From positions 620,001-684,000 of the forward strand of contig NC_052401.1 in NCBI RefSeq assembly GCF_009389715.1: DNA of 64,000 nucleotides. Reading direction: 5' to 3'. Origin of the DNA: Phoenix dactylifera. Taxonomy: Eukaryota > Streptophyta > Magnoliopsida > Arecales > Arecaceae. This document shows, piece after piece, positions 22,843 to 64,000 of the stretch. The translations under genes were made by a program, and so were the position numbers. The notes under the pieces were generated by a model that had not been told where the DNA came from, ran no database searches, and was given only the letters and a program-made list of their open reading frames with translations. The stretch's first letter is position 1. Every line of letters starts with the position of its first letter.

Positions 22843-23049
22843 ACATTACTGGGAGCGAGAGAGGAGAAGCCACAGCTTTGTGAGTGCTACCATCCTTGTT
22901 ATTCTTTGGTTGAATAGTACCAGTTTTTATTTTACCTTTTGTTTTTGTTTTCTATTATCTTTAAACTCAAGCAATTATACATCAATTCAGCAACACCATC
23001 ACCCTCCTATTTTCTCGAGATCAATTTTAATAGGACCGTGATGAAAAGA

Positions 23050-23285
23050 AGGTGCCATTTTGGATGCTATTTATACATGAAGAGTTTCACAGATTTATTT
23101 CGAGCAAGACTCTATAACAATTATTAGATATCTTTCTGATCCACTTCTCACCAACAAAGACTTTATCCACTGGATTGTTGGCGATGGGCAATTCACTGCT
23201 ATCAATCAAGATTTCACATATTTATAGAAAAGCTAATAATGCAGTTGATAGGATGGCATCTTATGTGGCAAATTAAATGGAATCT
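23050..23285 (+). mobile_element. LINE RNase H relic, module copy 1
   Basis: The translation contains EDSITIIRYLSDPLL and HIYRKANNAVDRMASYVAN, the C-terminal RNase H-like domain found at the end of plant LINE polyproteins. Stops and a loss of about 130 bp relative to copies 2 and 3 show long decay. Confidence 0.65.
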
Positions 23286-24032
23286 ACATTATAGATTTCT
23301 TCAGTAAATCTTCCTATTCAGTTTTGCAATATTTTATTTTCTAATTTTCATGAATGTATTTATGCTCAATTAATTTAAATCATTCGATTACCAAAAAAAG
23401 TGGTCGACTAATCAACCAGTGAGACTAAATTTTGTTCTATGGTGTGTATAAATATCCAAAATTTCTTCGGCGAATAACCGGCGTGAGACTAAATACATAT
23501 CCGCATGGATTCTCACAGTACCTCATCATAAAAGAAAAGAGGTCTCCTCTATATCACTTAGAGTTGTGTTTGAATCAATTCTAGAATGCTTGGTTATACT
23601 TGCCTTTCAAAGCAAGCCCTGCCTTCGGGTGCCAAAGTTTGCTACTCAAGATATTTAACCTTTGGACATATAATTAACACGAACTATTACATGTATGATG
23701 ACTCCTTTGAATTCCCAAACGGCCTTATTCCACCATGTAATGATTTCACCCAAGAAAATAATAATAAAAAAAGACAAGGTAGGACTATGCATATTCAACT
23801 TATGCATCTATTTCCATGCGCGTATATGTACCGACAGAATATTAATTTTGTTCTACCACTTGGATAACTTTATAAGGTGGTAACATCAATGTGATGCACC
23901 AAACATGATCATTAGAACATTTTATCATGTGTATGATCCTAAAGTAATAAAAATGCCGTAAGGGAGGGTGGGGAGGCTGCTCCCAAACATTCTCAACCGT
24001 CCAATTCTCTCTCTCTCTCTCTCTCTGATTTC
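23286..24032. other. Non-coding DNA, module copy 1
   Basis: No gene is seen. 23425-23515 carries a short repeat (tataaatatccaaaatttc...gtgagactaaatacatatcc...tctcacagt). A diverged relative lies at 34420-34495 and 54560-54635 (aactaaacacatgccc...ctccca). A (CT)n tract is at about 24006-24026. Confidence 0.5.
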
Positions 24033-24042
24033 ATCGTGCTGC

Positions 24043-24310
24043 TTTTTTTTTTTTTTTTTGCGCATCGGCAGCTCATACTGCTCTAACATGAGCACAACCT
24101 GCTACATCAGAAGCAAAAAGTCTACACAAAGAAAAGGAATGAGAATTGCTGAGTCCAAAAAAACTCTCCCGAGTGGTGAGCAGCAAACGAGGCCATCCAG
24201 TCAGCAGCTTGGTTCGCCCCTCGAAGGACATGCCTGACCTGGATGGCCTGATACTCCCGTAACATCCGTCGCATGTCGCACAGAAGCGAGTGCTCCACCT
24301 CCTCCTGCTA
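24043..24310 (-). mobile_element. 5'-truncated LINE insertion, private to copy 1
   Basis: A 268-bp insertion in minus orientation. A 17-T run at 24043-24059 is its poly(A) tail. The minus strand encodes IQVRHVLRGANQAADWMASF and AAHHSGEFFW, a LINE-type RNase H C-terminus, then a 3' UTR. It is flanked by the 10-bp target duplication atcgtgctgc at 24033-24042 and 24311-24320. Copies 2 and 3 have the site once and empty. Confidence 0.9.
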
Positions 24311-24923: not shown

Positions 24924-25486
24924 ATGGGTACCATCACCACAAGCATTTCATCTCTTCTTTTGGCATGCTCCTCCCATCCCTCTTCCTCCCCACTTGCGGC
25001 CTAACTGATGCAAAAACCGAGGCCCATTTCTCCAAACCAGCCCACATGAAGCTAAGGCGGAAGGTAAGCCACCTCCACTTCTTCTTCCATGACGTAGTGA
25101 GCGCCCGCAAGGCGGCGGCGGTGCCGGTCACCGATCCAGTCATGCCTTTTCCATCGAGCTTCGGCAAGATCGTCATGATGGATGATTTGCTGACGGAGGG
25201 GCCGGAGCCGACTTCGAAACCCGTGGGCCGGGCTTAGGGGATGTATTCATTTGCGGCCCAGCTCATGGTCATGAACTTCGTGTTCCCAGAGGGGAAGTAC
25301 AACGGCAGCGTGCTCACCGTGCTCGGACGGAACCCGGTGCTTCACCGGGTACGGGAGATGCCGGTGGTCGGAGGGAGCGGGCTGTTCCGATTCGCCCGGG
25401 GCTATGCTCAGGCCCAAACCCACTGGTTGGATCCCAACACGGGGGATGCCATTGTTGAGTACAATGCTTACGTGCTGCACTACTGA
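24924..25486 (+). pseudogene. Dirigent pseudogene DIR-1, copy 1
   Basis: Dirigent proteins are secreted all-beta trimers that steer radical coupling of monolignols. This intronless copy keeps [70 protein letters not shown] and the C-terminal [14 protein letters not shown]. Lesions: a 1-nt loss in the signal peptide codons (ctttt against cttttt in the other copies), a TAG at 25235 where the paralogue DIR-2 has CAG (VGRA-Q-G), and a 15-nt in-frame loss after GCCCAG near 25260. An internal ATG at 24965 opens a 90-codon frame to the TAG. The TAG is shared with copies 2 and 3, so it predates the duplications. Confidence 0.88.
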
Positions 25487-30115: not shown

Positions 30116-31227
30116 TGTATCATAAAAATTTGTTTCCTCTTGCTTCATTATTGGTAGTCTTATTCAAGTCTATATGAAACATTTTTTGTCTAGATTCTCT
30201 TTCTTAAAATGTGGTTAATACTTGGAGGTTTTGTTAAGGTACGGATTTTCGCACCGACGCATGAATAGATTTTTAAGAGATTCGTTTTAACTGCAAACAT
30301 ATGAACCAATTTGGAAAGGCCACGACGTTCCAGGAGACCACTCGGACCACCTACTCTGGGATTATGGAGTTGTAAGAGGTAATCAGCTTTTGTAGCTTTG
30401 TTGTGGGTGCTCTTGGAGACTGCCATGACCGAAATCTGGAGGTATCACTGGTCCCTCTTGCTCTCACCTACCCTTAATGAGCCCGTCCCACAAGAGATGC
30501 ATTGGCCTCTCTCCAATCACATATGTTGCTACCGAAAGCAACATTATTTGTAGGTTCTGATAGCCCGTTTGCAGCAACATAAGGTTTCATCTAATAAATT
30601 TAGCTAGGATATGTTATTTGAATTTCTTAATAATATATAAGTATCCAAAATCTATCTAGTTCGTAGAAAAAATAGTACTAATCATCTACCCAAAGGACAA
30701 CCAATGATCTAAAATTATATTTCCCAAAATAGAGAGGACCGAACATATGTTCTAGCCTTTCAGGCACGCACCCCCTTGAATCGAAACATTGGCAAACTAG
30801 ATTTCACCCTCACGAAAAAAAAAAAAAAGAAGCAGAACAGGAGCCTACCGCAAGTACTACTACTTTTATGCGAACCCTCCTATGCAAGCTATAACAGCCC
30901 TAATAATGATATAGCGGTTGCTACCTAAAGTAGGTTTGGGGAAAAAAGTAGCAGGATTTGACCCCAAAAAAAAAGTAGTAGGTTTGAAAAAGCTGTCCAC
31001 ATGTAAAGAATTTTACGATTACTTTGCTCTCGTTCCAACTTTTTATTTTTCTGAGCAATGATTCCACTCTCCATGGCCTGTAGCATTGAGTAGAGCCAGG
31101 GGACACCGACAATGACATCCATTGAATGAAAAAGAAAAGAGCCAAAACCAAAACCACATCATGAAGATCACCTTGCAACCAACGCCATTGAGAGGACACA
31201 AACTAAATCAGAAAACCAACCTCTAAA
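30116..31227. other. Non-coding DNA between LINE relic and DIR-2, copy 1
   Basis: Almost identical to 50428-51544 and slightly more different from copy 3. The recombination switch point lies near 30176-30201. A 78-codon minus-strand frame (30190-30426) is shared by all copies but changes residues freely, so it is not called a gene. Confidence 0.55.
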
Positions 31228-31803
31228 TCAGTAGTGCATGACGAAAACATTGTACTCCACCACAGCATCACCAGTCTTAAGATTGAAGGTGTGCGTCCGG
31301 GCCTGGGCATAACCCTGGGCCAACCGAAAAAGCCCACTTCCCCCGATCACCGGCATCTCCCTCACCTTCGACAATGCCGTATACCGGCCCAATATGGTAA
31401 CCGTGCTACCATTGTACTTGCCGTCGGTGAAGGCAAAGTTCATGGACATCAGCAGGCCCGCCTCCTCCTTGGACGCGAAACAATAGAAACCCTGGGCCCG
31501 GCCCACTAGCTTTGAAGTGGCCTCAGGGCCAACGGTCAGCGCGTCGTCGATCATGACCAACGTGCCGAACGAGGTCGCCGACTTGTTGGCCGAGGCCGCC
31601 TGGGCCACCCTGACGGTGCTCGGATCCGGCCCGCTCACGACGTCGTGCAAGAATAGCCGCAGGTGGCTCAGCTTCTGGCGCACCGGCGGCGTCGCCGGCT
31701 TTTGACTCTGGAGGAAACTGTAGTGTTCTCCATCCTTGGCTGAGGAGGGAGTGATGGTGCTGAATAAGAGAAGAAGAATGGCGATCGAAAAGAGTTTGCC
31801 CAT
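31228..31803 (-). CDS. Dirigent protein DIR-2, copy 1
   Basis: An intact intronless 191-aa dirigent protein, likely apoplastic, of the family guiding stereoselective phenoxy-radical coupling in lignan and lignin-type defence metabolism. Residues 1-22 are a clear signal peptide (hydrophobic core SIAILLLLF, cut near SSA-KDG). Family motifs: HDVVSGPDP (53-61), [12 protein letters not shown] (82-93), [13 protein letters not shown] (128-140), [11 protein letters not shown] (147-157), YAQART (165-170), [11 protein letters not shown] at the end. N-glycosylation sequons are at N73 and N131. Only one Cys is present (C108), so the disulfide seen in pinoresinol-forming dirigents is absent and the product is uncertain. 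The start at 31803 was chosen because the frame upstream is a Cys-Val run from a microsatellite. Converges with DIR-1 of its module. Confidence 0.93.
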
Positions 31804-31810
31804 GAGAACC

Positions 31811-31812
<2 letters not shown>

Positions 31813-31892
<80 letters not shown>
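31813..31892. repeat. (CA)18(GA)22 microsatellite in the DIR-2 leader, copy 1
   Basis: On the sense strand this is (TC)n(TG)n ending 9 nt before the ATG. The copy 2 equivalent has 23 CA and 21 GA units. Confidence 0.95.
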
Positions 31893-31895
<3 letters not shown>

Positions 31896-31958
31896 GTGAG
31901 AATGGGATGGGAGTTTGGGTTTTGGTGTGATGAGTGTATGTGTCTGAGCCCTTGGTGG

Positions 31959-31967
31959 TTATTTATG
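31959..31967 (-). promoter_or_regulatory. TATA-like box of DIR-2, copy 1
   Basis: Minus-strand CATAAATAA about 160 bp upstream of the ATG. This would place the microsatellite inside the 5' UTR. The same sequence precedes copy 2. Confidence 0.5.
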
Positions 31968-32120
31968 GGGACCGTCAGGCGTCAGGTGGGGGTGGGGACT
32001 GGTGGAGGAAAATTTTATTTAATGGGTCTGCTTCCCGTTATTTTGTCTATTTAAAAGCGCCTGGTTTGGTTGGGGTGAAACTTTCCCCATGATCTTTACC
32101 TGAGGAAGGGCATGGCTTGG

Positions 32121-32244
32121 CACTCAGGTGTCTTTTTATGGACGTCTGATGCAGACGTCCCTTCACAGTTGTATTTTTTGCTTTCCCGTGATTTGGAGGG
32201 CTGTACTCACGTCCGATCTATATGATATGAGTAGCCGTTTTTAC

Positions 32245-32290
<46 letters not shown>
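32121..32290 (+). mobile_element. Poly(A)-tailed retroposon, private to copy 1
   Basis: A 170-bp insertion starting cactcaggtgtc and ending in 45 A (32246-32290) after ...gccgtttttacc. Flanked by the 13-bp target duplication gggcatggcttgg at 32108-32120 and 32291-32303. Copy 2 has this word once (about 52434) with no insert. No pol III A/B boxes are seen, so a 5'-truncated LINE tail is more likely than a SINE. Confidence 0.88.
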
Positions 32291-32295
<5 letters not shown>

Positions 32296-32303
32296 TGGCT
32301 TGG

Positions 32304-34650
32304 GAGTTGGGAATGCAAGTAACACTTCGATTGTTTTTTTCTCTAAAATAAATATTTCGTACCCTTCAAATACGGCCATATCCAAAAATAAAATAAAATA
32401 AAATAAAAAATAGTAGAGTACTCTAGGCAGCTTTTTTTTTTTTTTTTACCCACAGGACATTTTTGGAGTGGTTGGCATAGAAGGCTCACTTCTATTAACT
32501 ACCGGCTAAAATAAGAATAAAAAAACACTGAATTTTTTTTAAAAAAAATGTCAAGAAGTATACTTTTGACTTGGTATTAGGTAAGATGGGTCTCAAATTG
32601 GTAATCTGGTCATAAATCAAGTCTGAACTTTTAAGTTAATCTTTCCTTGTATGAAACCAATTAATCTGATTGAGAGCCATAGTCTTTGGAGCTCTGGAGG
32701 ATCAAGTATAGGCCTATTTTGCACCAATAATACATGACTTCTTAGGAAGACAATGGAGACAGCATTTTGCCATTAACTTGGAAGATTTTCTGATGGTATG
32801 AATTCTTATACTTAAATCAAGCCTAAATTAGATCCTTTAGGCATATCAGCATTTCGTACATGGCCCACTCAGCTACCTTTCGAAAGCTTAAATTCTAGAC
32901 AAAGCTAGCTTTCCTGAGAAAGTCGATCGACATGACTTGGTTGCCCAACGAATATAAGTATGGAGCAAGAATCGGAGTCCTTCCATAGTAAAATGGTTTA
33001 AAGGTTTGTCTTTTTTCTGAAGGGTAATGGAGGAAGTGAATTGCTTTCCCCAGATTTATTGAGATGGTAATAAAAGAAGACAAAGCTTGTAGATATATAC
33101 AGAGTTAAGGCATGAGAAGAATAGGAGGGCAGAGGGTAGCCTGCTCCTTTCAGTCTGCATCAAGGGTAACAAGTGGTTCAATAGCAATCTATAGCTGTCA
33201 AGTAACCTCGGTGCACAGATTTCCCCAGAGCTAAAAACACTGAAGAGTTTTTGTATAAGACCGAAGCCAATGAAGAAGATTTTCTGACAAAAATTCAAAA
33301 AATATATTCACTCCGGACCTGACAATGTATATTCACATTGTAGTAGGGGAAGAAAATCCTGCAGCTGTTGATGAAATTGTAACAAGAGTTAGTAGTGAAT
33401 TTACCATCATTTGTGAGTTCCTTTAGAGGTCATCATCTGACATGTTCCTCATTTCAGTTTTTGGACCCAATAATAGGTCAATATTGAATACTAGGCTTGA
33501 TGTCTCAGAATTGATGGCATCCAATAGGAATGTTTATCATTCATCTTATCAAAACAAAAATCATAATAACGATTTCCTTGTCGGAACAAAGTAGTTTGAA
33601 ACTTTAAAAATCCAACACATATGTCCAGCATACTATATTTTTTTAGTTTTCAAAATATCATGAAATTATGCTCTAAATAAAACTTGATAATTTTTTGCTT
33701 ACAAAATAGTCTTTATAATTTTTTTTAAGAAGGAAAGGAAGTGATTACAGCCCTATCAACCATACAAATCCAAAGTGCTCCAAGATACGACTCTCTCCTG
33801 AGTTATGGCTCTTGCTAGGTATGGCTAATGCAAAAATCTACTAGATCATTCAAATTGCTGAAGTTAATTACCCAAAAGTTATAGAATTCTGTATTTTTTT
33901 TTATATTTGATTAGCCAAGCAATATGTTAAATTAAGGAGGAGGACTTTCTCATCTTTCCTTCTGTATCATAGAATTTCCATGTGGTTCGTCTCATAAGAG
34001 AAAACAGCTGAGCCATTGACACATGCTTTCATAACTAAAAAATGTAACTAGCAAAATCATTCAGCTGGTGTGCTGTTTTTGTATTTGCGCCGTGAATTGT
34101 GGCAAAATAATGGAAGCAAAGAAGAATGTGAATGGTGGGAGAGACAGTTGAGTGAATTTTTTGGGTGGTTTTTCTGAGTTACCATGGCATTATGTAACAG
34201 CTTAAGACCTCACCCAAAATAGCATCAGGTTAAAAGTTTAAATCCATTTAAATCTAATTACAAGCATTACGATCGGCCGATGGTCAGCCTCAATGAGCCT
34301 TTGCTGCAATGTTCCCTAGTCCACATGAGTTATAGGCTGGATTTACTCTGATACTATTTGTAACAACCTATGATTTCATCCAAAATAGTTAGCTCGAAGG
34401 TATTTTTTAGATTTTATAGACATGTATAAATACCCAAGATCTTTTGGGCAAATAATTGATATGGAACTAAACACATGCCCACGGATCTCCCACATTATTC
34501 TTTTGCATTTGTTAGTGGTCCCTGCTACTCTTCGTCCACAATAATTGGGACCCAAAACGAGTAGAAAATGGGTCACCTAGAAAAGATTAAAGTAGAACCT
34601 GACTTGGCTTAAACGCGCGTGCACTGCGTGGGGCTCTGCGTACATCTTCC
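32304..34650. other. Non-coding tail of module copy 1
   Basis: Nearly identical to 52444-54790 (about 7 substitutions noticed). It contains a poly(T) run at about 32431-32449 and a dispersed-repeat relic at 34195-34500 built on two gtaaca...ctt...atgatttcatccaaaatag-like blocks. No gene is recognised. Confidence 0.5.
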
Positions 34651-35544: not shown

Positions 35545-36440
35545 TGTTAGCAATATATCTCCTAACTAAATAAATAAATCTATAAATTCAATTAATAAAA
35601 AAAAACCTTAAAGGAAATAATATACATGCATATCATTCGGCATCCAAATAATTCTATTTTAATACAAAATAAATCTATTCTAGCACAAAGTAAATCTATG
35701 CATTTAATAAGTTTATATCATAGAATTTCAAATCCTACCAATCTACTAATATTAAATTAAAAATAAAGGTAGAAGAAAGTAGCCTGATTGAAAGCAGGTC
35801 GAAGCGCGTAGACGCTGTCCCAAAGAAGTATTTGCCCCCACGTACGGGTCACCCGGCAATCCTTCTCGGAGATACGACGACCCTACAACCTCTTCTTCGG
35901 CACGTCTCGGAAGAAGTCAAAGCGAACCCGATCGGACTTGCAGATCCAGCAAAGAACGGAATGAAAAGAACTAAATAAACTGAATAAAAATGTAAAATAA
36001 AATTTGGAAGTGGCTAAGAGGGAGAAGAATTTTTTCAGAATTTTTTCACTATTTTTCTGAAATTTTTCGTGTATCAAAAGAGATGAAATAGGGGGTATAT
36101 ATAGGGGTTTTACGCAGGGGCAAAATGGTCTTTTTGGCGGACGCGTCCGCGCTCTTCACGCGAACGTGGGCAACGTGCGCCTGTCCGCTGGCATGTTCCC
36201 ATTTAAACCAAAAACGCCCGTTGGGCGTTTCCAATTCAAACGGGCATGCCCGTTTTATTTCTCAAACGCGCACGCGGCCCGACACCGGCCGCGTGCGCAT
36301 TTAATTCCTTCTTTGAAAATCCCCGGTTGTTTCCGAAACCAAACGCGTAACGCCCGCTGGGCGTTACCTTTTTGTTTTCCCTCTTAAACGCGCACGCGGC
36401 CAAATTTCGGGCCGCGTGCGCATTTAAATTTTTCCTAACA
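35545..36440 (-). repeat. Copia 3' LTR (left end)
   Basis: 896 bp, at the downstream end of the leftward-transcribed element. Its last 300 bp are full of GC-rich inverted repeats (aacgcccgttgggcgttt, cgcacgcggcc paired with ggccgcgtgcg, taacgcccgctgggcgtta). Confidence 0.95.
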
Positions 36441-36441
36441 A

Positions 36442-36448
36442 TCCCCCA
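36442..36448 (-). other. Polypurine tract of the copia element
   Basis: Minus-strand GTGGGGG just before the LTR start, the expected place and composition for a plus-strand primer site. Confidence 0.65.
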
Positions 36449-36967
36449 CAAAAATTTAAATAATTTTAAAATCAAAATAAATTGCTGGATATCTTATATT
36501 ATGTAATAGGTGTAGGTACCTTTCGGTTTGAACCTTCACTTAGTGACAATTGATTACATCTGTGGAGCCAAGGTGGTCTTAACCTTGAACCTCGGTCCAT
36601 GGCTCAGATTAAATCAACAGCACACATAATATAGCCCGATCTGGGTTCTAAGCGGGTTGCGCTATTATGGCCATGCGCAGGTATCTATCATGTGCTTTTT
36701 AGGGAATCGCCCATTTCCCATAATCGCGGCCTCACGATTGCACATATAGGTGAGTCCTAATAAGGAAGCTAACAAGGAAGCTCCTGCCTCTTGGGTCTCG
36801 GACTCATTAAGAGTTATACAAACGAACTCATCCTACCACTTGCTTTTATGAGCACTAGCGCCATAGGGATGAGGAAAACATGAAATTGTGCTCCTCTTAG
36901 TCACACTCCGGTTTGTTTCTACCCATTGAACCTTTTAAGGTTGGGTTCCCACCGTGGTGATCTATCT

Positions 36968-39900
36968 TTATGGGCTAAGCCCCATCCCCCTCGATGACTC
37001 TAGAACCACTGTTCTAGATAAACCTTTTGTAAGCTGATCAGCCAAATTATTTTCTGATTTTACAAAATTCAAGGCAATAACATTATTTTTCAATTTATAT
37101 CTCAATGATTTATGATGTACTTTTAAGTGCCTGTTCATTTTTACATTGGCATTTTCTTGGTTGCACTTATCTATTGCAGATTTACAGTCACAATGTAAGG
37201 AGACAGGTGGTAAAGGTGACTCATCTACAGGAAGGTCTATTAGTAGATCTCTGAGCCACTCAGCCTCAATGCTAGTAGTGTTTAAAGCTATCATTTCAGA
37301 CTCCATGGTACTCCTAGATATCAAGGTTTGTTTGGTGGATTTCCAAGACACAGCAGCACCTCCTAGGAGAAAGACGTATCCTGTGGTGGATTTAACATCT
37401 AAGGTATCGCTGATCCAGTTGGCATCACTATAGCCTTCTAGAACAGCAGGAAACCCACTAAAGTGCAAACTATAGGACTTAGTACCCTTAAGATACCTAA
37501 GGATCCTTTCTAATGCGGTCCAGTGATCTTTATTTGGATTAACAGTATATCTGCTAAGTCTATTTACAGCATATGCTATGTCTGGCCTAGTGTAGTTAGT
37601 TAGGAATCCTAGTGAGCCTATGATTTGAGCATATAGGCTTTGAAGGATAGGAGTTCCTAAGTTCTTCTTAAGATGTGTAGAGGGATCAAAGGGAGTAGAG
37701 ACAGGCGGACAATCCGAATAATTAAATTTGTTGAGTATCTTGTCAACATAATGACTTTGGGATAACTCAATTCCATTTGCACTTCTAATTATTTTGGTAT
37801 TTAAAATTAAGTCAGCTTGTCCCAAGTCTTTCATATCAAACTTATGACTTAAAAATTGTTTTACTTCATCAATTATCTGAAGATCTGTCCCAAAGATCAG
37901 TATATCATCTACATAAAGGCACAAGATCACAAATTTGTGTCCAACTCTCTTATGATATACACATTCGTCTGTGCTATTGATTTCAAATCCAAATGTCATT
38001 ATGGTTTCATCAAATTTCAAATGTCATTGCTTAGGTGCTTGTTTAAGACCATAAAGAGATCTGACTAGTCTGCAAACTTTATTTTCTTGGCCTGGGGTTT
38101 TAAATCCCTCTGGTTGGTCCATATAAATTTCTTCATTTAAGTCTCCATTTAGAAAAGCTGTCTTAACATCCATTTGATGAATCACTAATCTATGAATGGA
38201 GGCTAATGCTATAAGGACCCTAATAGTAGTTATCCTAGCTACAGATGCATAAACATCAAAGAAATCTACCCCAGGTCTCTGAGTAAAGCCCTTGGCAACT
38301 AATCTAGCCTTAAATTTATCTACAGAGCCATCAGGCCTAAGTTTCTTCTTAAAGATCCATTTGCATCCTATTGTTTTACAACCAGGAAGAAGATCAGTCA
38401 ATTCCCAAGTATGGTTTTGGATAATTGATTGCATCTCATTGTCCACAGCTTCTCTCCAAAAAGGTGAATCCAAAGATTTCATTGCGTCCTCAAAGGTAGT
38501 TGGAGAGTCTTCTATTAGGAAGGTATAAAAATCATCTCCAAATATTTTCTCTATCCTGGATCTTTTACTCCTCCTAGGTTCTGCTTCTACTTCTACTGTT
38601 CTTGTCCTTATTCTACTAGAGCTACTAGCTATACCGCTATCTACTCTAGTCTTAAGTGGAAAGGTGTCTTCAAAATATGTTGCATCTCTGGCTTCTATGA
38701 TAGTGTTGTTACTAATATCATTTATTTCTGAACTTATTACCAGAAATCTATTGGCATTACTATTGGCTGCATAACCTATGAATATGGCATCCACTGTTTT
38801 AGGGCCTATTTTCTTTCTCTTAAAATCAGGTATTTTTACTTTTGCCAAGCACCCCCACACTTTTAAATAGCTAAGATTAGGTTTTCTATGTTTCCAAACT
38901 TCATATGGGGTTAGATCATTATTTTTAGAGGGAATTCTATTAAGGATATAACAGGCTGAAACAAGAGCTTCCCCCCACAAATTTTCTGGTACTCCTGAGC
39001 TTATAAGCATGGAGTTCACCATATCCATTAAAGTCCTATTCTTCCTTTCTGCTACTCCATTTGATTGGGGAGAATAGGGTGCAGTCACTTCATGAATGAT
39101 TCCATGATCTTCACAGAATTGAGTTATGTCATTTGATGTATATTCACCTCCCCGATCTGATCTAAGAATTTTAATTTTCTTTTCCTGTTGGTTCTCAGCT
39201 TCAATCTTAAAAATTTTAAATTTGCTGAGCACCTCATCCTTGGTTTTAATTAGGTAGATGTAACAGAACTTCGATAGATCATCTATAAATATTACAAAGT
39301 ATCTGTTACCTCCCCTAGAAGTTCTACCAGAGTCACAAACATCACTATGAATCAACTCTAATAGATCAGAATCCCTATTAACAGATTTAAAAGGCTTCCT
39401 AGGGAGTTTGGCTTCTACACAAGTTTGACATTTCTCATGGTTCTTGAGATCACTTTTTGGTATTAGATTTAGGTTCATAAGTTGCTTAATTGAATTATAA
39501 TTTACATGACCTAATCTACCATGCCAAATAGAAGGAGGCTCTATATTCATAATCAAAGGATTTTCATTTATTGAAGGAGCTATTACATTCAATTTGAACA
39601 ATCCTTCACTAAGGAATCCTTTTCCAATAAACATAACACCATGAGAAATTACAACCTTATTGGACTCAAAGACAAGACGAAAGCCTTGCTGGACAAGCAA
39701 AGAACCACTAATGAGGTTTCTCCTAACAACTGGAACATGTTGGACGCCGTGCAGTGACAGGACTTTTCCAGAGGTAAGCTTTAAGTCCACACGTCCTACT
39801 CCTAACACACGTGCCTCCGAGCTGTTTGCCATGATCACAGCTCCTCCACTTGAGATCTGGTAAGAAGAAAACCTGGAACGATCCGAACAAATATGAATAC

Positions 39901-40945: not shown

Positions 40946-41782
40946 AGGATCAGGGTTACAGAATAGTGACAGAAACCTGATTGAAATCAAAAAATCTATG
41001 TCAAAAGATTGCAGTAATATTTATATTGAACTTTGGATGTCTAATTGATATATCCAAAAAACTAATAGCCAGATCAGCTCCAGATCGGTGGTGGAGCACT
41101 AGGCTCACTTAAGTACCAGCCTTTCTTAGGCACGTATGCCTTTTTGACAAGCTTTTCTTAGACAGTATTAGTTAATGGATATAATCACTAGAAATCACAC
41201 AAATTCAATATTTAAAATAACCTAAATGCAAATTTAAATTAGATATTGTGGATTAACTAATTTCAAAATTTTTCGTTTGAATTTTCCGAATTAGCAATGA
41301 TTGATTACTAATTTAGTAGTAGCAAATCAATTATTTTAATTTTGATCTAAAATATCAATTTAATGAATTATATGTTAGATTTGAATTATTGCCTTATTGA
41401 AATAATTGATTACTAATTTTATGGCAAATCAATTATTGTAATTAAGATCTAAAATGTCAATTCAGCGAATTAAAATATTTATTCCTTTATTAGAATAATT
41501 TATTGAGATCTAATAAGTCAATTCAATAGATTAACTATTATGTATCAACCAAATTCCGAATTTTCCGTTTGAATGGGATCTGGAAATTACTCCTTGAGAA
41601 GTCCAAATGGAGGTATAATAAACCTCTTGGAGGTTAACCAAATTATTAACTCTTTAGAATAATTTATTATTGATGATGTGCTAGCAAAAACAATTATTGC
41701 AATTAAAATCTAATATGCCACAATTGCAATAAAGAATTTAATTAATTATATATTACTAACAAAAATAAGCACTTCTTTGGAT
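40946..41782 (-). other. Copia untranslated leader
   Basis: AT-rich leader between the 5' LTR and gag. A block opening ttgattacta recurs at 41301 and 41405, a loose tandem repeat of about 104 bp. No good match to the initiator-Met primer site is seen next to the LTR. Confidence 0.6.
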
Positions 41783-42679: not shown

Positions 42680-42684
42680 AGTGC

Positions 42685-44119: not shown

Positions 44120-44174
44120 GCTTCCATGATTCCATCTTAGCTTAATTCCATGCCCTCCACGCATTGGCAGAAAA

Positions 44175-45372: not shown

Positions 45373-45627
45373 TGTGTCTTTGTGGGAGTTACCTTCAGTT
45401 GGATTGGATTCATAACATAACAGTTTGTTTTATCCCTCGGACGGTACCGCCTTTTTGTTTGCATGGACGGCTTGTCAGTTGTCGCTGAGCAGTGAAACAA
45501 AAGACGAAGTATTGGTGGCCGTGTGAGACCTACCTGGTTCACAAGGGCGTCTCCACCGAGTCCGGATGCTACTGAATTACACCCCGTGGCCAAATGATCC
45601 AGATGGTGAGGAATTCATAGAAAGATT

Positions 45628-48600: not shown

Positions 48601-49380
48601 ACTTGCTATTTACCTTTTTAAAAAAAACAATTCGAAATGAATTTGGGCCGGCTTCAAGTTCTGATTGGGTAAGTCGGATTTGGATATACAAATCTAGTAA
48701 AGAGAGAATGCTTGCACCAAGGATGGACATTTCTCTCTCCCCCTCCCCCTTTTTTTTTTCTCCTTTTCTCTTTTCTTCTTCCTCTTTCTTCTTTTCTTCT
48801 TTTCTTTTCTTCTTTTCTTCTCCTTCATCGCCCTCCCCTCTTTTCTTCCCCGTGAAACTGGAGGGGGAAGGGCGAGAGCCCACCCCACCTAAGACAGAGA
48901 AGGGGAAGGAGGCCTCTAGCCCGACGGTGGCGCGGCCGAGGGCCGGCGGGCGGTAGGGTGGAACCACCAGATATGCTCTCCCCCCTTCTCTTCTTCTTCT
49001 TCTTTTTCTTCTTCTTCTTCTTCTTTTTCCTTATTCCGGCGGCCCTTTGCCGGATTCCAGCCATTGTCGATCGATCGGAAGGAGGGGGAGACAAGAGAAG
49101 GAAATGCGAAGGGTATGGAAGGCCTTACCTTGCTCCGATGAGGCGTTGCACCTCGACCCCGGCGGCACAAGCGAGGGCACAGTCAGCTCAAGCAGGAGAA
49201 GGGACGAAGATGGAGGAGGAATAAGAAGATGGATGGAGGTGGAGTGGAATCGAGGGTTTTTTAAGCCCCAGAGAGGGAGTGTAGCGATCGGCCGTTCGTC
49301 AGTTACAACCGTCTAACGGCCGCGGCGGTTGGGCCTGCCGACTTTGGGCTAAGTCAGGCCCAGTTGGCTTGATTCTTACA
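45628..49380. repeat. 3.7-kb composite non-coding repeat, copy 2
   Basis: Same content as 25887-29603 with two diverged sub-units. GA/CT microsatellites at about 47063-47260 and 48735-48830 differ in length from the other copies. Confidence 0.6.
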
Positions 49381-49749
49381 GACTGTGTAAGCCCAAACCT
49401 CCGCGAGAGGACTGCGAATACTGAAGCAAAAGACTGAATCTTCCATGAAATCTATCACATTGAATGCTGTGACGACGACACAACAACAACAGCTATGGTA
49501 ACTCTTAAATAAAAAGCATGGATGCAAGGAAAATGTTTTGAAAACTAATCCGGCCATGGGTCGGCACCTCCAACTAGAGTACAGCAAATAATACAAGTCT
49601 AATTATCCCAATTGGTGTAATGTTAATTGGACCACTTTATGGGACGAGTCCCGTTCGACAGATGCTATATCACATCAGTTAATTTCAAAAAAATAATAAT
49701 ATTTAATTATCTTTTGTAGGTCCTTGCTAATTATCAATTATGTTCTATT
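49381..49749. other. Non-coding DNA before the LINE relic, copy 2
   Basis: No gene is seen. Missing from copy 1 by deletion and present in copy 3. Confidence 0.5.
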
Positions 49750-50425
49750 TAGATGCCCCCATGCAGCTCAGGTGTGGGGTAGGATCATGAACTCACCGCA
49801 GGTAGTGACTTAAGTAGAGGACTTCTTAAGCCAGCTGAAGGGAGCTCGGTGGCGACCAAGCACTCTGGAGTTGGATATTAGATGTGCCTATGTGGCCTAT
49901 CATATAAGGCTAGACAGAAATACCCAAATTTTTCAGGGTAGAAGTATGCACTCGAAGACAGTGGCGGGTAGGGCTGTACTTCACCCCTACCCCCTTGCTT
50001 TTTCAAGGTTGATTTTGATGGCAGTATCGTTGACAATAGAGAAAGAGGTGGAGTGGGCTTTGTGATCAGGGATCATGAGTCTAAGCTCATTGCGGCCGAC
50101 ATGTCTTCGATGAATCAGTCAGTGGTGCAGAGTTGAGAGCTGCATGGGAGGACATTGTCTTTGCCAAATGGGTCTTAGGGGCGACTTGTATTCAGCTTGA
50201 GGGCGACGCGGCCATAGTGATTGATTGGATTTATAAGAGTGTTGATAGGGACAGACGTTCGAATTGGCATATGCTTTGTTGGATATATGTAAGATTGTGA
50301 GTGGGCTGATGGCATTCCGAGCTACCCAATGTCTATCGGAAGGCAAACAGTGTTGCCTCCTATGCGGCGCACTACTCAGAAGAATTTTGTTGGGAGGGCA
50401 CGGACGCTGCTCCCCCACCCCTTCG
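49750..50425 (+). mobile_element. LINE C-terminal relic, copy 2
   Basis: Starts in a CPHAAQVWGRI-like segment (the region between reverse transcriptase and RNase H in plant LINEs), then VDFDGSIVDN, GGVGFVIRDHESKL, ELRAAWEDIVFAKW and EGDAAIVIDWI, with stops. The 3' end is shortened by about 150 bp relative to copy 3. Confidence 0.75.
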
Positions 50426-51544
50426 TTAGGAATAAAATTTGTTTCCTTTTGCTTCATTATTGGTAGTCTTATTCAAGTCTATATAAAACATTTTTTGTCT
50501 AGATTCTCTTTCTTAAAATGTGGTTAATACTTGGAGGTTTTGTTAAGGTACGGATTTTCGCACCGACGCATGAATAGATTTTTAAGAGATTCGTTTTAAC
50601 TGCAAACATATGAACCAATTTGGAAAGGCCACGACGTTCCAGGAGACCACTCGGACCACCTACTCTGGGATTATGGAGTTGTAAGAGGTAATCAGCTTTT
50701 GTAGCTTTGTTGTGGGTGCTCTTGGAGACTGCCATGACCGAAATCTGGAGGTATCACTGGTCCCTCTTGCTCTCACCTACACCTACCCTTAATGAGCCCG
50801 TCCCACAAGAGATGCATTGGCCTCTCTCCAATCACATATGTTGCTACCGAAAGCAACATTATTTGTAGGTTCTGATAGCCCGTTTGCAGCAACATAAGGT
50901 TTCATCTAATAAATTTAGCTAGGATATGTTATTTAAATTTCTTAACAATATATAAGTATCCAAAATCTATCTAGTTCGTAGAAAAAATGGTACTAATCAT
51001 CTACCCAAAGGACAACCAATGATCTAAAATTATATTTCCCAAAATAGAGAGGACCGAACATATGTTCTAGCCTTTCAGGCACGCACCCCCTTGAATCGAA
51101 ACATTGGCAAACTAGATTTCACCCTCACGAAAAAAAAAAAAAAAAGAAGCAGAACAGGAGCCTACCGCAAGTACTACTACTTTTATGCGAACCCTCCCGT
51201 GCAAGCTATAACAGCCCTAATAATGATATAGCGGTTGCCACCTAAAGTAGGTTTGGGGAAAAAAGTAGCAGGATTTGACCCCCAAAAAAAAGTAGTAGGT
51301 TTGAAAAAGCTGTCCACATGTAAAGAATTTTACGATTACTTTGCTCTCGTTCCAACTTTTTATTTTTCTGAGCAATGATTCCACTCTCCATGGCCTGTAG
51401 CATTGAGTAGAGCCAGGGGACACCGACAATGACATCCATTGAATGAAAAAGAAAAGAGCCAAAACCAAAACCACATCATGAAGATCACCTTGCAACCAAC
51501 GCCATGGAGAGGACACAAACTAAATCAGAAAACCAACCTCTAAA
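50426..51544. other. Non-coding DNA before DIR-2, copy 2
   Basis: No gene is seen. Identity switches near 50485-50510: left of it matches copy 3, right of it matches copy 1. Confidence 0.55.
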
Positions 51545-52120
51545 TCAGTAGTGCATGACGAAAACATTGTACTCCACCACAGCATCACCAGTCTTAAGAT
51601 TGAAGGTGTGCGTCCGGGCCTGGGCATAACCCTGGGCCAACCGAAAAAGCCCACTTCCCCCGATCACCGGCATCTCCCTCACCTTCGACAATGCCGTATA
51701 CCGGCCCAATATGGTAACCGTGCTACCATTGTACTTGCCGTCGGTGAAGGCAAAGTTCATGGACATCAGCAGGCCCGCCTCCTCCTTGGACGCGAAACAA
51801 TAGAAACCCTGGGCCCGGCCCACTAGCTTTGAAGTGGCCTCAGGGCCAACGGTCAGCGCGTCGTCGATCATGACCAACGTGCCGAACGAGGTCGCCGACT
51901 TGTTGGCCGAGGCCGCCTGGGCCACCCTGACGGTGCTCGGATCCGGCCCGCTCACGACGTCGTGCAAGAATAGCCGCAGGTGGCTCAGCTTCTGGCGCAC
52001 CGGCGGCGTCGCCGGCTTTTGACTCTGGAGGAAACTGTAGTGTTCTCCATCCTTGGCTGAGGAGGGAGTGATGGTGCTGAATAAGAGAAGAAGAATGGCG
52101 ATCGAAAAGAGTTTGCCCAT
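51545..52120 (-). CDS. Dirigent protein DIR-2, copy 2
   Basis: An intact 191-aa secreted dirigent protein, identical base for base over its 576-nt CDS to the gene at 31228-31803, so all residue positions given there apply. The start at 52120 follows the same logic: the frame upstream is only the TG microsatellite. It lies head-to-head with the DIR-1 pseudogene of copy 3 (57169), about 5 kb apart. The lack of any change against copy 1 points to a very recent duplication or gene conversion. Confidence 0.93.
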
Positions 52121-52127
52121 GAGAACC

Positions 52128-52129
<2 letters not shown>

Positions 52130-52217
<88 letters not shown>
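52130..52217. repeat. (CA)23(GA)21 microsatellite in the DIR-2 leader, copy 2
   Basis: Same position as 31813-31892 but with five more CA units and one fewer GA unit, the only sizeable change near the otherwise identical genes. Confidence 0.95.
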
Positions 52218-52220
<3 letters not shown>

Positions 52221-54790
52221 GTGAGAATGGGATGGGAGTTTGGGTTTTGGTGTGATGAGTGTATGTGTCTGAGCCCTTGGTGGTTATTTATGGGGACCGT
52301 CAGGCGTCAGGTGGGGGTGGGGACTGGTGGAGGAAAATTTTATTTAATGGGTCTGCTTCCCGTTATTTTGTCTATTTAAAAGCGCCTGGTTTGGTTGGGG
52401 TGAAACTTTCCCCATGATCTTTACCTGAGGAAGGGCATGGCTTGGGAGTTGGGAATGCAAGTAACACTTCGATTGTTTTTTTCTCTAAAATAAATATTTC
52501 GTACCCTTCAAATACGGCCATATCCAAAAATAAAATAAAATAAAATAAAAAATAGTAGAGTACTCTAGGCAGCTTTTTTTTTTTTTTACCCACAGGACAT
52601 TTTTGGAGTGGTTGGCATAGAAGGCTCACTTCTATTAACTACCGGCTAAAATAAGAATAAAAAAACACTGAATTTTTTTTAAAAAAAATGTCAAGAAGTA
52701 TACTTTTGACTTGGTATTAGGTAAGATGGGTCTCAAATTGGTAATCTGGTCATAAATCAAGTCTGAACTTTTAAGTTAATCTTTCCTTGTATGAAACCAA
52801 TTAATCTGATTGAGAGCCATAGTCTTTGGAGCTCTGGAGGATCAAGTATAGGCCTATTTTGCACCAATAATACATGACTTCTTAGGAAGACAATGGAGAC
52901 AGCATTTTGCCATTAACTTGGAAGATTTTCTGATGGTATGAATTCTTATACTTAAATCAAGCCTAAATTAGATCCTTTAGGCATATCAGCATTTCGTACA
53001 TGGCCCACTCAGCTACCTTTCGAAAGCTTAAATTCTAGACAAAGCTAGCTTTCCTGAGAAAGTCGATCGACATGACTTGGTTGCCCAACGAATATAAGTA
53101 TGGAGCAAGAATCGGAGTCCTTCCATAGTAAAATGGTTTAAAGGTTTGTCTTTTTTCTGAAGGGTAATGGAGGAAGTGAATTGCTTTCCCCAGATTTATT
53201 GAGATGGTAATAAAAGAAGACAAAGCTTGTAGATATATACAGAGTTAAGGCATGAGAAGAATAGGAGGGCAGAGGGTAGCCTGCTCCTTTCAGTCTGCAT
53301 CAAGGGTAACAAGTGGTTCAATAGCAATCTATAGCTGTCAAGTAACCTCGGTGCACAGATTTCCCCAGAGCTAAAAACACTGAAGAGTTTTTGTATAAGA
53401 CCGAAGCCAATGAAGAAGATTTTCTGACAAAAATTCAAAAAATATATTCACTCCGGACCTGACAATGTATATTCACATTGTAGTAGGGGAAGAAAATCCT
53501 GCAGCTGTTGATGAAATTGTAACAAGAGTTAGTAGTGAATTTACCATCATTTGTGAGTTCCTTTAGAGGTCATCATCTGACATGTTCCTCATTTCAGTTT
53601 TTGGACCCAATAATAGGTCAATATTGAATACTAGGCTTGATGTCTCAGAATTGATGGCATCCAATAGGAATGTTTATCATTCATCTTATCAAAACAAAAA
53701 TCATAATAACGATTTCCTTGTCGGAACAAAGTAGTTTGAAACTTTAAAAATCCAACACATATGTCCAGCATACTATATTTTTTAAGTTTTCAAAATATCA
53801 TGAAATTATGCTCTAAATAAAACTTAATAATTTTTTGCTTACAAAATAGTCTTTATAATTTTTTTTAAGAAGGAAAGGAAGTGATTACAGCCCTATCAAC
53901 CATACAAATCCAAAGTGCTCCAAGATACGACTCTCTCCTGAGTTATGGCTCTTGCTAGGTATGGCTAATGCAAAAATCTACTAGATCATTCAAATTGCTG
54001 AAGTTAATTACCCAAAAGTTATAGAATTCTGTATTTTTTTTTATATTTGATTAGCCAAGCAATATGTTAAATTAAGGAGGAGGACTTTCTCATCTTTCCT
54101 TCTGTATCATAGAATTTCCATGTGGTTCGTCTCATAAGAGAAAACAGCTGAGCCATTGACACATGCTTTCATAACTAAAAAATGTAACTAGCAAAATCAT
54201 TCAGCTGGTGTGCTGTTTTTGTATTTGCGCCGTGAATTGTGGCAAAATAATGGAAGCAAAGAAGAATGTGAATGGTGGGAGAGACAGTTGAGTGAATTTT
54301 TTGGGTGGTTTTTCTGAGTTACCATGGCATTATGTAACAGCTTAAGACCTCACCCAAAATAGCGTCAGGTTAAAAGTTTAAATCCATTCAAATCTAATTA
54401 CAAGCATTACGATCGGCCGATGGTCAGCCTCAATGAGCCTTTGCTGCAATGTTCCCTAGTCCACATGAGTTATAGGCTGGATTTACTCTGATACTATTTG
54501 TAACAACCTTTGATTTCATCCAAAATAGTTAGCTCGAAGGTATTTTTTAGATTTTATATACATGTATAAATACCCAAGATCTCTTGGGCAAATAATTGAT
54601 ATGGAACTAAACACATGCCCACGGATCTCCCACATTATTCTTTTGCATTTGTTAGTGGTCCCTGCTACTCTTCGTCCACAATAATTGGGACCCAAAACGA
54701 GTAGAAAATGGGTCACCTAGAAAAGATTAAAGTAGAACCTGACTTGGCTTAAACGCGCGTGCACTGCGTGGGGCTCTGCGTACATCTTCC
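52218..54790. other. DIR-2 upstream flank and module tail, copy 2
   Basis: A TATA-like CATAAATAA lies near 52286 (minus). Then non-coding DNA nearly identical to copy 1, without the poly(A)-tailed insert. No gene is seen. Confidence 0.5.
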
Positions 54791-57168: not shown

Positions 57169-57746
57169 ATGGCTACCATCACCACAACCATTTCATCTCT
57201 TCTTTTTGGCATGCTCCTCCCATCCCTCTTCCTCCCCACTTGCGGCCTAACTAATGCAAAAACCCAGGCCCATTTCTCCAAACCAGCCCACATGAAGCTA
57301 AGGCAGAAGGTAAGCCACCTCCACTTCTTCTTCCATGACGTAGTGAGCGGCCGCAAGGCGACGGCGGTGCCGGTCACCGATCCAGTCATGCCTTTGCCAT
57401 CGAGCTTCGGCAAGATCGTCATGATGGATGATTTGCTGACGGAGGGGCCGGAGCCGACTTCGAAACCCGTGGGCCGGGCTTAGGGGATGTATGCATTTGC
57501 GGCCCAGCAGGAGCTGGGCCTGCTCATGGTCATGAACTTGGTGTTCACAGAGGGGAAGTACAACGGCAGCGTGCTCACCGTGCTCGGACGGAACCGGTGC
57601 TTCACCGGGTACGGGAGATGCCGGTGGTCGGAGGGAGCGGGCTGTTCCGATTCGCCCGGGGCTATGCTCAGGCCCAAACCCACTGGTTGGATCCCAACAC
57701 GGGGGATGCCATTGTTGAGTACAATGCTTACGTGCTGCACTACTGA
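57169..57746 (+). pseudogene. Dirigent pseudogene DIR-1, copy 3
   Basis: Nearly identical to copy 2: the same signal peptide, the shared TAG (57481) and the shared 1-nt loss in the GRNPVL codons. It lacks the extra TAG of copy 2 in the YAQAQ motif. At most a 104-aa N-terminal fragment could be made. Confidence 0.9.
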
Positions 57747-61100: not shown

Positions 61101-61918
61101 TTAAAATAAATTACTTGCTATTTACCTTTTTAAAAAAAACAATTCGAAATGAATTTGAGCCGGCTTCAAGTTCTGATTGGGTAAGCCGGATTTGGATATA
61201 CAAATCTAGTAAAGAGAGAATGCTTGCACCAAGGATGGACATTTCTCTCTCTCCCTCCCCCCCCCCCCCCCCCCCCCCCCCCCTTTTTTTTTTTTCTCCT
61301 TTTTCTCTTTTCTTCTTCCTCTTTTCTTCTTTTCTTCTTTCCTTTTCTTCTTTTCTTCTCCTTCATCGCCCTCCCCTCTTTTCTTCCCCGTGAAACTGGA
61401 GGGGGAAGGGCGAGAGCCCACCCCACCTAAGACAGAGAAGGGGAAGGAGGCCTCTAGCCCGACGGTGGCGCGGCCGAGGGCCGGCGGGCGGTAGGGTGGA
61501 ACCACCAGATATGCTCTCCCCCCTTCTCTTCTTCTTCTTCTTTTTCTTCTTCTTCTTCTTCTTTTTCCTTATTCCGGCGGCCCTTTGCCGGATTCCAGCC
61601 ATTGTCGATCGATCGGAAGGAGGGGGAGACAAGAGAAGGAAATGCGAAGGGTATGGAAGGCCTTACCTTGCTCCGATGAGGCGTTGCACCTCGACCCCGG
61701 CGGCACAAGCGAGGGCACAGTCAGCTCAAGCAGGAGAAGGGACGAAGATGGAGGAGGAATAAGAAGATGGATGGAGGTGGAGTGGAATCGAGGGTTTTTT
61801 AAGCCCCAGAGAGGGAGGGTAACGATCGGCCGTTCGTCAGTTACAACCGTCTAACGGCCGCGGCGGTTGGGCCTGCCGACTTTGGGCTAAGTCAGGCCCA
61901 GTTGGCTTGATTCTTACA
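58147..61918. repeat. 3.7-kb composite non-coding repeat, copy 3
   Basis: As in copies 1 and 2, with an unusual run of about 28 C (about 61256-61283) where the others have short C runs. Confidence 0.6.
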
Positions 61919-62290
61919 GACTGTGTAAGCCCAAACCTCCGCGAGAGGACTGCGAATACTGAAGCAAAAGACTGAATCTTCCATGAAATCTATCACATTG
62001 AATGCTGTGACGACGACACAACAACAACAGCTATGGTAACTCTTAAATAAAAAGCATGGATGCAAGGAAAATGTTTTGAAAACTAATCCGGCCATGGGTC
62101 GGCACCTCCAACTAGAGTACAGCAAATAATACAAGTCTAATTATCCCAATTGGTGTAATGTTAATTGGACCACTTTATGGGACGAGTCCCATTCGACAGA
62201 TGCTATATCACATCAGTTAATTTCAAAAAAATAATAATATTTAATTATCTTTTGTAGGTCCTTGCTAATTATCAATTATGTTCTATTTAG
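61919..62290. other. Non-coding DNA before the LINE relic, copy 3
   Basis: Matches 49381-49750. No gene is seen. Confidence 0.5.
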
Positions 62291-63110
62291 ATGCCCCCAT
62301 GCAGCTTAGGTGTGGGGTAGGATCATGAACTCACCGCAGGTAGTGACTTAAGTAGAGGACTTCTTAAGCCAGCTGAAGGGAGCTCGGTGGCGACCAAGCA
62401 CTCTGGAGTGGAATATTAGATGTGCCTATGTGGCCTATCATATAAGGCTAGACTAAAATACCCAAATTTTTGAGGGTAGAAGTATGCACTCGAGGATAGT
62501 GGCGGGCAGGGCTTTACTTCACCCCTATCTCCTTGCTTTCTCAAGGTTGACTTTGATGGCAGTATCGTTGACAATAGAGATAGAGGTGGAGTGGGCTTTG
62601 TGATCAGGGATCATGAGTCTAAGCTCATTACGGCCGGCATGTCTTCGATGAATCAGTCAATGGTGCAGAGCTGAGAGCTGTATGGGAGGACATTGTTTTT
62701 GCCAAATGGGTCCTAGGGGCGACTTGTATTCAGCTTGAGGGCGATGCGGCCATGGTGATTGATTGGATTCAGAAGAGTGTTGATAGGCACAGACATTCGG
62801 ATAGGCATCTGCTTTGTTAGATATATGTAAGATTGTGAGTGGGCTGATGGCATTCCGAGCTACCCATATCTATCGGAAGGCAAACAGTGTTGCCTCCTAT
62901 GCGGCGCACCACTCAGAAGAATTTTGTTGGGAGGGCACGGACGCTGCTCCCTCACCCCTTCGTCGACTTTTGGTTTTTGACTCTTACAAGTGCACTCATA
63001 TGCGTATGGTATGGTTTGCCGTTGTATCATAAAAATAAAAAAAAAAGGAAGTAGTTGCTATCTTGTTTTCTTGTTATTCTTGTCGTCGTCGTTGTTGTTT
63101 GCTGCTGTTA
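62291..63110 (+). mobile_element. LINE C-terminal relic, copy 3 (most complete)
   Basis: The longest of the three relics: the region before RNase H, the RNase H domain with stops, and a 3' UTR with an A-rich stretch and cgtcgtcgttgttgtttg at about 63080-63100. Copies 1 and 2 lack different parts of this tail. Confidence 0.75.
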
Positions 63111-64000
63111 TGAATAAAATTTGTTTCCTTTTGCTTCATTATTGGTAGTCTTATTCAAGTCTATATAAAACATTTTTTGTCTAGATTCTCTCTCTTAAAA
63201 TGTGGTTAATACTTGGAGATTTTGTTAAGGTACGGATTTTCGCACCGACACATGAATAGATTTTTAAGAAATTCGTTTTAACTGCAAACATATGAACCAA
63301 TTTGGAAAGGCCACGACGTTCCAGGAGACCACTCGGACCACCTAGTCTGGGATTATGGAGTTGTAAGAGGTAATCAGCTTTTGTAGCTTTGTTGTGGGTG
63401 CTCTTGGAGACTGCCATGACCGAAATGTGGAGGTATCACTGGTCCCTCTTGCTCTCACCTACCCTTAATGAGCCCGTCCCACAAGAGATGCATTGGCCTC
63501 TCTCCAATCACATATGTTGCTACCGAAAGCAACATTATTTGTAGGTTCTGATAGCCCGTTTGCAGCAACATAAGGTTTCATCTAATAAATTTAGCTAGGA
63601 TATGTTATTTGAATTTCTTAATAATATATAAGTATCCAAAATCTATCTAGTTCGTAGAAAAAATAGTACTAATCATCTACCCAAAGGACAACCAATGATC
63701 TAAAATTATATTTCCCAAAATAGAGAGGACCGAACATATGTTCTAGCCTTTCAGGCACGCACCCCCTTGAATCGAAACATTGGCAAACTAGATTTCACCC
63801 TCACGAAAAAAAAAAAAAAGAAGCAGAACAGGAGCCTACCGCAAGTACTACTACTTTTATGCGAACCCTCCTGTGCAAGCTATAACAGCCTAATAATGAT
63901 ATAGCGGTTGCTACCTAAAGTAGGTTTGGGGAAAAAAGTAGCAGGATTTGACCCAAAAAAAAGTAGTAGGTTTGAAAAAGCTGTCCACATGTAAAGAATT
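63111..64000. other. Non-coding DNA at window end, copy 3
   Basis: Equivalent to 30122-31010 of copy 1. It is more different from copies 1 and 2 than they are from each other. A third DIR-2 gene would be expected just past the window end. Confidence 0.55.

Follow-up and report, generated by a model that had tools for sequence, protein, structure and literature searches.

Seven tandem duplication blocks of dirigent genes have been described in barley, where 27 dirigent genes stand in tandem duplication (PMC9667096). In maize, the multi-copy p1/p2 alleles form a tandem array attributed to unequal crossover, gene conversion, and retrotransposon insertions (PMC3014980). The locus reported here is a dirigent gene array of Phoenix dactylifera, analysed in a window of 64,000 nucleotides (C10:620001-684000, C10 being contig NC_052401.1; genome of 773 Mb, 2391 contigs). 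Its repeating unit holds two divergent genes, DIR-1 on the + strand (module L) and DIR-2 on the - strand (module R). Judged from sequence, the array very probably grew from one such pair by repeated duplication of R-L blocks and by short conversion tracts, with one block of the scaffold misoriented.

The array resembles the barley blocks in that dirigent genes multiplied in tandem. It differs in its two-gene divergent unit, whose non-coding DNA gives segment histories, whereas the available part of the barley account deals with tandem blocks at the gene level. With the maize alleles, as far as the available part of that report describes them, it would share array growth by unequal crossover, conversion, and retrotransposon insertions; the gene family is another one, and alleles of several lines were compared there, copies in one assembly here. 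Tandem growth of dirigent families is common, and the locus is no new kind of system; it is ordinary biology, well resolved. No description of a mosaic dirigent array of this kind was found among the listings of literature searches naming dirigent. The locus provides a clean case of a two-gene unit whose duplication, conversion, and decay can be read in a single assembly and measured against a single-copy homeolog. The array also broke the scaffold, and dirigent gene counts or calls of a 1.9-Mb inversion made from the assembly could mislead.

Units and genes of the array

A unit of ~12 kb was found in three head-to-tail copies at 22843-64000 (units 1, 2, and 3), where the initial annotation had placed them, and homologous units so arranged make up a tandem array. 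All modules are given on the + strand. Module L1 (22843..30176) begins at the contig start and is the most diverged L in the window; its left part is of the type of L_a, a copy at C10:2.577 Mb. It is followed by R1 (30177..34650), L2 (34651..35544 to the left of a copia insertion, the remainder at 42680..50424), R2 (50425..54790), L3 (54791..63106), and the first 894 bp of R3 (63107..64000), whose DIR-2 lies beyond the window at C10:684216-684833. Without private inserts, the two young R-L units measured about 12.5 and 12.7 kb by coordinate arithmetic, which agreed with the lengths first proposed. Directly before copy 1 lies a scaffold gap of 100 N (22743..22842), so that the left edge of the array in the window is a gap in the scaffold and not a duplication breakpoint; its true left continuation is probably located elsewhere in the assembly.

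The analysis was extended to C10:684-724 kb, C10:2515-2605 kb, 155-185 kb of the homeologous contig C14, and parts of contigs C734 and C673. Outside the window, the modules L_a, L_b, L4, R_a, R_b, and the remainder of R3 were recognised. The genome search placed DIR-2 at C10:651228 and 671545 (both in the window), 684216 (R3, 94%), 2568941 (R_b, 100% over 615 bases), and 2580249 (R_a, 93%). DIR-1 relatives were found at C10:645160, 664412, 677406, 703789 (L4), and 2575868 (L_a). The array content is therefore five DIR-2 copies and five L modules with the start of a sixth (L_b, first 646 bp). A search with the non-coding DNA of R recovered the five DIR-2 loci again; its six other matches were short, none covering more than 103 query bases. 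Non-coding DNA of L returned four long copies (95-100%) and at least 41 dispersed matches (71-82%), a lower bound as the best 40 of 1185 candidates were scored. That part of L is a dispersed genomic repeat. It contains a direct repeat (~71-74%) of 26270-26648 and 27965-28358 in L1, which is also present inside L2, L3, and L_a.

DIR-2 is intact in copy 1 (31228..31803, - strand, 191 aa; PF03018, E 9.9e-57) and in copy 2 (51545..52120, - strand), which also matched Pfam. Their coding sequences did not differ (0/576 nt) and were the same in R_b. The PF03018 match scored 191.3 bits against a curated cut-off of 29.1 and covered positions 2-147 of the 148 in the profile; DIR-2 thus has a full dirigent domain, and the 191-aa frame is open in R1, R2, and R_b. 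Comparison with the Protein Data Bank gave 6ooc, 6ood, and 8th2 over 150-162 residues (E 2e-49 to 8e-47; 6ooc, E 1.7e-49). By this sequence match, DIR-2 resembles pterocarpan-synthase-type dirigent proteins; its activity, substrate, and subfamily are putative.

DIR-1 is a pseudogene in all three units of the window. A premature TAG is present in L1, L2, L3, and L_a, and a 1-bp frameshift is limited to L2 and L3. Copy 1 (24959..25486, +; PF03018) has in addition a private 15-bp deletion and copy 2 (44175..44752, +) a second, private TAG; copy 3 (57169..57746, +) carries the common TAG and the frameshift. The only intact DIR-1 of the array is that of L4.

The homeologous locus on C14 consists of one R-L pair at 166.5-171.2 kb, with R at 166516-167042 (-) and L at 170365-171190 (+). 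Its DIR-2 is broken, and its DIR-1 is open over the matched 151 query residues. The sequence flanking the array beside R_a (flankA, C10:2582-2588 kb) matched C14 on the R side over 4837 aligned bases, and that past L4 (flankB, C10:708-713 kb) matched on the L side over 1903. The reverse flank combinations and a shuffled flankA gave 0 matches on C14. The single R-L pair of the homeolog, bordered by these shared flanks, makes R-L the natural unit.

Segment histories of the units

The initial annotation had proposed that copies 2 and 3 agree in L, that copies 1 and 2 agree in R, with a sharp switch near 30.18 kb, and that this reflects an old L-R duplication followed by one young duplication of an R-L block. 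The first point held. Across 4912 three-copy sites of L (24734-29670), copy 1 stood alone at 152, copy 2 at 26, and copy 3 at 20; identity in L was thus not equal among the three copies, L2 and L3 agreeing against L1. Optimal segmentation of copies 1 and 2 gave 14.7% difference at 22843-23425, 62% over 87 sites that hardly align (to 23512), 6.5% to 23761, 17.7% to 24733, and 1.9% at 24734-26325, so that L1 and L2 differ in strata of about 15-18%, 6%, 2%, and, before the R module, 4.6%. The main step lies at 30177/50486, where the difference falls from 4.64% (26326-30176) to 0.37% (30177-34650).

The switch is therefore a real step for copies 1 and 2, but the grouping after it changes. Copy 1 differs at 30176 and copy 3 at 30201, as had been claimed; copy 1 was alone at 5 sites in 30121-30176, and copy 2 at 30120. 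Agreement of copies 1 and 2 against copy 3 applied to 6/6 substitution sites from 30201 to 30436, but beyond 30436 five of six substitution sites set copy 2 apart. Among the later indels, 30464 and 30814 group copies 1 and 3, while 30898 and 30965 group copies 1 and 2. In the R part common to all copies (894 aligned bases for copies 2 and 3), each copy was alone at 6 sites, and the groupings were clustered along the sequence, with 5 switches (as few in 4/5000 shuffles). In three of the four comparison windows at 30107-31306, R1 was closer to R3 than to R2. The agreement of copies 1 and 2 in R thus fails for most of the R3 seen in the window and holds for R3 beyond it, which differed from R1 by 1.0-10.0% in 12/12 windows from 31307 on; there R1 differed from R2 by 0-1.0% and from R_b by 0-1.3%.

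The annotation had further expected uniform high identity of the young pair. When R1-L2 was aligned to R2-L3, this failed: the best split gained 33.7, compared with at most 12.3 in 500 permutations. The segments were 9.8% over the first 61 sites (30107-30176), 0.36% (30177-34776), 10.3% (34777-34883), 0.31% to 43321, 14.1% at 43322-43404 (a 61-bp repeat region of doubtful alignment), 0.99% to 49871, 7.6% (49872-50281), and 1.45% from 50282 into R2/R3, to 51329. The young pair thus has patches of 7.6-14% in a background of 0.3-1%, and within the background 0.36%/0.31% differs significantly from 0.99% (20/5712 vs 59/5974, P 2e-5).

Comparison with the copies outside the window located the clearest conversion tract. 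The densest cluster of copy-2-private sites comprised 9 sites in 72 columns, which 0/1000 permutations reached. A patch in copy 2 was considered for these sites (34777-34848) and rejected, since comparison with L_a, L_b, and L4 places the conversion in copy 3. In L3 (54916..54987, +), 9/9 sites at which it departs from L2 carry the L1/L_a state as opposed to that of L2, L_b, and L4, while the equivalent in L2 (34777..34848, +) retains the L_b/L4 type at the 9 sites. A patch of L2 at 49872..50424 (+) matches L_a (C10:2.57 Mb), with L3 nearer L1; the seemingly copy-2-private sequence therefore has a counterpart in the array outside the window.

Trees of separate segments were constructed with IQ-TREE and ultrafast bootstrap. 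The private inserts of R3 (C10:685045-691341 and 692362-699744) were left out of the alignment, and the L4 sequence used ended at C10:704499. In left L, L1 and L_a were separated from L2, L3, L4, and L_b (100%), although the 334 L1+L_a sites are inflated by positions near 35.4 kb and at 43.1-43.5 kb that hardly align (52-56% difference). At 43.9-45.9 kb, where sites are few, L2 grouped with L3 (92%) and then with L4 (92%). In right L (45881-49871), L2 and L3 were set against L1 and L_a by 16 sites, compared with 1 site for L1+L2 (100%). Across the L-R junction, unit 2 grouped with L_a-R_b and unit 1 with unit 3, by 18 sites to 0 (100%). In R, R_a alone was apart at 30731-31320, and both 31321-31620 and 31621-34650 set R1, R2, and R_b against R3 and R_a (100% each). 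Different segments of the unit thus support different trees, as in an array with unequal exchange and gene conversion.

These trees bear directly on the proposed, conversion-free history of one old L-R duplication and one young R-L tandem duplication whose breakpoints would lie near 30.19 and 50.50 kb. That history is consistent with the step at 30177/50486, with the frameshift of L2 and L3 that is absent from L1 and L_a, and with the departure of R3 from R1 and R2 beyond the window. However, two events are insufficient because the unit segments support different trees at 100% bootstrap; five DIR-2 copies are present, the divergence patches are clustered, and early R3 lacks old divergence. After 30177, only 6 of 833 three-copy sites were of the kind uniting copies 1 and 2 against 3, where two events would yield 27-36 (P 1e-6 to 1e-9), or 12.7 with the lowest L1 stratum as yardstick (P 0.03). 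As a complete account the two-event history is refuted by the segment trees and was considered very improbable, and it still describes the largest single boundary fairly. What stands of the interpretation is the mosaic nature of the copies, R-L rather than L-R as the young repeating block, and a main boundary near 30.18 kb.

Growth of the array may be outlined as follows. From one divergent R-L pair, DIR-2 (-) and DIR-1 (+), R-L blocks would have been duplicated several times by misaligned exchange, and gene conversion in short tracts would have copied pieces between units, leaving neighbouring segments with different nearest relatives. The order would be flankA, R_a-L_a, R_b with the start of L_b and a gypsy element, the gap, L1, R1-L2, R2-L3, R3-L4, and flankB. 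R_a, at one end, would be the oldest R; R_b, R1, and R2 with L_b, L2, and L3 would be the youngest, and L4 at the other end keeps its intact DIR-1. R_a is the most diverged R, differing by 3-25% per window from the other R copies, and is thus clearly old.

The young copies R1, R2, and R_b have common changes relative to R3 and R_a at 22 sites within 300 bp of the second half of DIR-2, and 24 such sites occur in the whole coding sequence. Of these 24, the broken DIR-2 of C14 agrees with R3/R_a at 14 and with the young copies at 4, which makes 14/18 deciding sites with the R3/R_a state; at the others it shows a third state (3 sites) or a gap (3 sites). The L4 DIR-1 showed 11 R3/R_a, 6 young, and 7 third states, and the C14 DIR-1 showed 8, 9, and 6 with 1 gap. 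The polarity leans towards the R3/R_a state as the older one, yet is not settled. Among the matches listed in the genome search, none was nearer than R_a (91%) as a donor for the altered half. It is conceivable, but rather unlikely, that a single altered variant of DIR-2 was spread by the three youngest units, such that the array amplified and homogenised a functionally changed dirigent enzyme of putative activity while its partner DIR-1 decayed.

The split array and the orientation of a 1.9-Mb block

The array is cut in C10 at the 100-N gap C10:642743-642842, and its other half is found inverted at C10:2565687-2581205, near a second 100-N gap (C10:2549430-2549529). The sequence at the left end of the window (X, C10:620001-631876) matched C734:41.4-53.2 kb in five pieces of 1.9-2.0 kb at 96.7-99.2% and four shorter ones at 87.8-99.3%. 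C734 lacks the gypsy element next to X and continues into other, non-array sequence. Further on, C734:149606-160000 corresponds to the reversed block end, starting at C10:2549429, the base that adjoins the gap, and reaching 2538839, at 97.2-97.8%, and C734:158.9-163.4 kb continues the block end (99% to C10:2535-2540 kb). No array sequence was found between X and the block end in the parts of C734 read, and no N runs in the 80 kb read of its 163 kb. The interval between X and the block end (C734 53.2-149.6 kb) spans ~96 kb; its pieces at 53-80, 100-110, 120-130, and 140-149.6 kb had no high-identity match in the compared stretches of C10.

On contig C673, the gypsy element of C10:631877-642742 is present (main pieces 94-96%); beyond the end of the element, C673 follows C734:53210 onward, with a five-base overlap at the empty site, and extends to the block end. 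The gap-cut element thus leads, on C673, into the C734 middle instead of L1. On C14, the block end had a single match at 3.12 Mb, the middle of C734 one at 3.284 Mb, and the heat-shock-factor (HSF) gene of X one at 3.290 Mb, with the R-L pair at 0.17 Mb; flankA, flankB, block end, C734 middle, and X have one order and orientation on C14 only with the block flipped. Flipping C10:642843-2549429 therefore gives C10, C734, and C14 one order and lets the array halves meet. The block (~1.9 Mb) is most likely in the wrong orientation in the scaffold, and the left edge of the array in the window would be an assembly edge because the block is misoriented according to C734, partly C673, and the homeolog.

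A real inversion of this block, heterozygous with respect to C734 and broken within the array and close to gypsy copies, would explain why the related gypsy elements at its two ends point in opposite directions, why no target repeat pair flanks the gypsy element C10:2552640-2565686, as would follow from exchange between elements, and why C673 has a different left flank at its gypsy copy. It was judged unlikely: both breakpoints coincide with 100-N gaps, C10:642743 and C10:2549430, C734 matches the block up to its gap in the uninverted order, and the homeolog has the uninverted order too.

An assembly artefact, with some units being alleles or duplicated haplotype pieces set in series, was likewise thought improbable. 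L1 to L4 lie in one N-free piece (C10:642843-724000), private insertions flanked by target repeats occur in L2 and R1, and the units diverge by up to 5-18% per segment, more than the 0.8-3.3% between C10 and C734 in the five 1.9-2.0-kb pieces. Among the matches listed, no alternate contig had array sequence at array-level identity. In favour of an artefact, the assembly keeps the alternate contigs C734, C673, and C1046, two scaffold gaps break the array, and R_b, R1, and R2 are nearly identical.

Duplication with conversion in a partly misoriented scaffold is the preferred explanation, and several observations weigh against it. R_b, R1, and R2 differ by only 0-1.3% per window from 31.0 kb and by up to 2.1% before, and their likeness may reflect assembly duplication of one unit. 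Copy-3-private sites were unclustered (observed maximum reached in 94/1000 permutations). L4 appears older by its intact DIR-1 and by its outlying position at 44.7-45.9 kb (2.8-8.7%), yet it joins L2 and L3 in left L and is mixed in this respect. The unit start occurs twice, in L1 and in the first 646 bp of L_b, and 3.1 kb of non-array sequence separate the gypsy element from the second gap; the halves therefore do not join simply, and at least one unit piece is missing. C673 lacks X, and to the left of its gypsy element (C673:50001-56114) stands sequence that is neither X nor array. At 3.1-3.3 Mb of C14, each match is a single short one among others; the HSF gene has higher identity on C8 (86%) and on C91 and C4 (80%) than on C14 (78%); and the far end of the block gave two weak repeat-like matches to C14:155-185 kb (766 aligned bases). 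The evidence on the block comes from the window, C10:684-724 kb, C10:2515-2605 kb, half of C734, and parts of C673 and C14.

Inserts and other features

The insertion in L2 at 35545..42679 (-) has no counterpart in L1 or L3. Two long terminal repeats (LTRs), a 5-bp target repeat (AGTGC), and gag, integrase, and RVT_2 domains identify it as a copia LTR retrotransposon, and its pol is interrupted. The LTRs differ at 8/897 sites, all transitions; compared with 3/1161 in the near flanks and 49/7095 in the broad flanks, this was not significant (P 0.07 and 0.52). L2 also contains a MITE-like insert (miniature inverted-repeat transposable element; 44902..45371, +) with 17-bp perfect terminal inverted repeats that is absent from L1 and L3. 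A retroposon-like insert with ~45-nt poly-A and a target repeat of ~13-15 bp is private to R1 (32121..32288, +) and not in R2. In R3, an LTR-like element (C10:692360-699739) has 470-bp end repeats that are 99.1% alike. An RNase-H-like coding remnant was seen in translated frames at the right end of L (62540-62960 and equivalents); it is putatively of the long interspersed nuclear element type.

No Rfam matches and no tRNAs were obtained in the window, and a single weak Pfam match, YxiG, fell under its cut-off and was disregarded. The gypsy element at 11877-22742 (gag, reverse transcriptase, RNase H, and integrase) is GC-rich, cut by the gap, and not in C734 at the same site; a 122-bp repeat array lies inside it at 19218-20608. 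C10:2535001-2540000 is also present on three contigs (C1046, 100%; C673 and C734, 99%), and by these matches the assembly is keeping several haplotypes or copies of that stretch. The HSF gene of X is an open frame at 5486-6190 (-) with a heat-shock-factor DNA-binding domain (PF00447), and the C734 copy is 100% identical (rounded) over all 705 bases.

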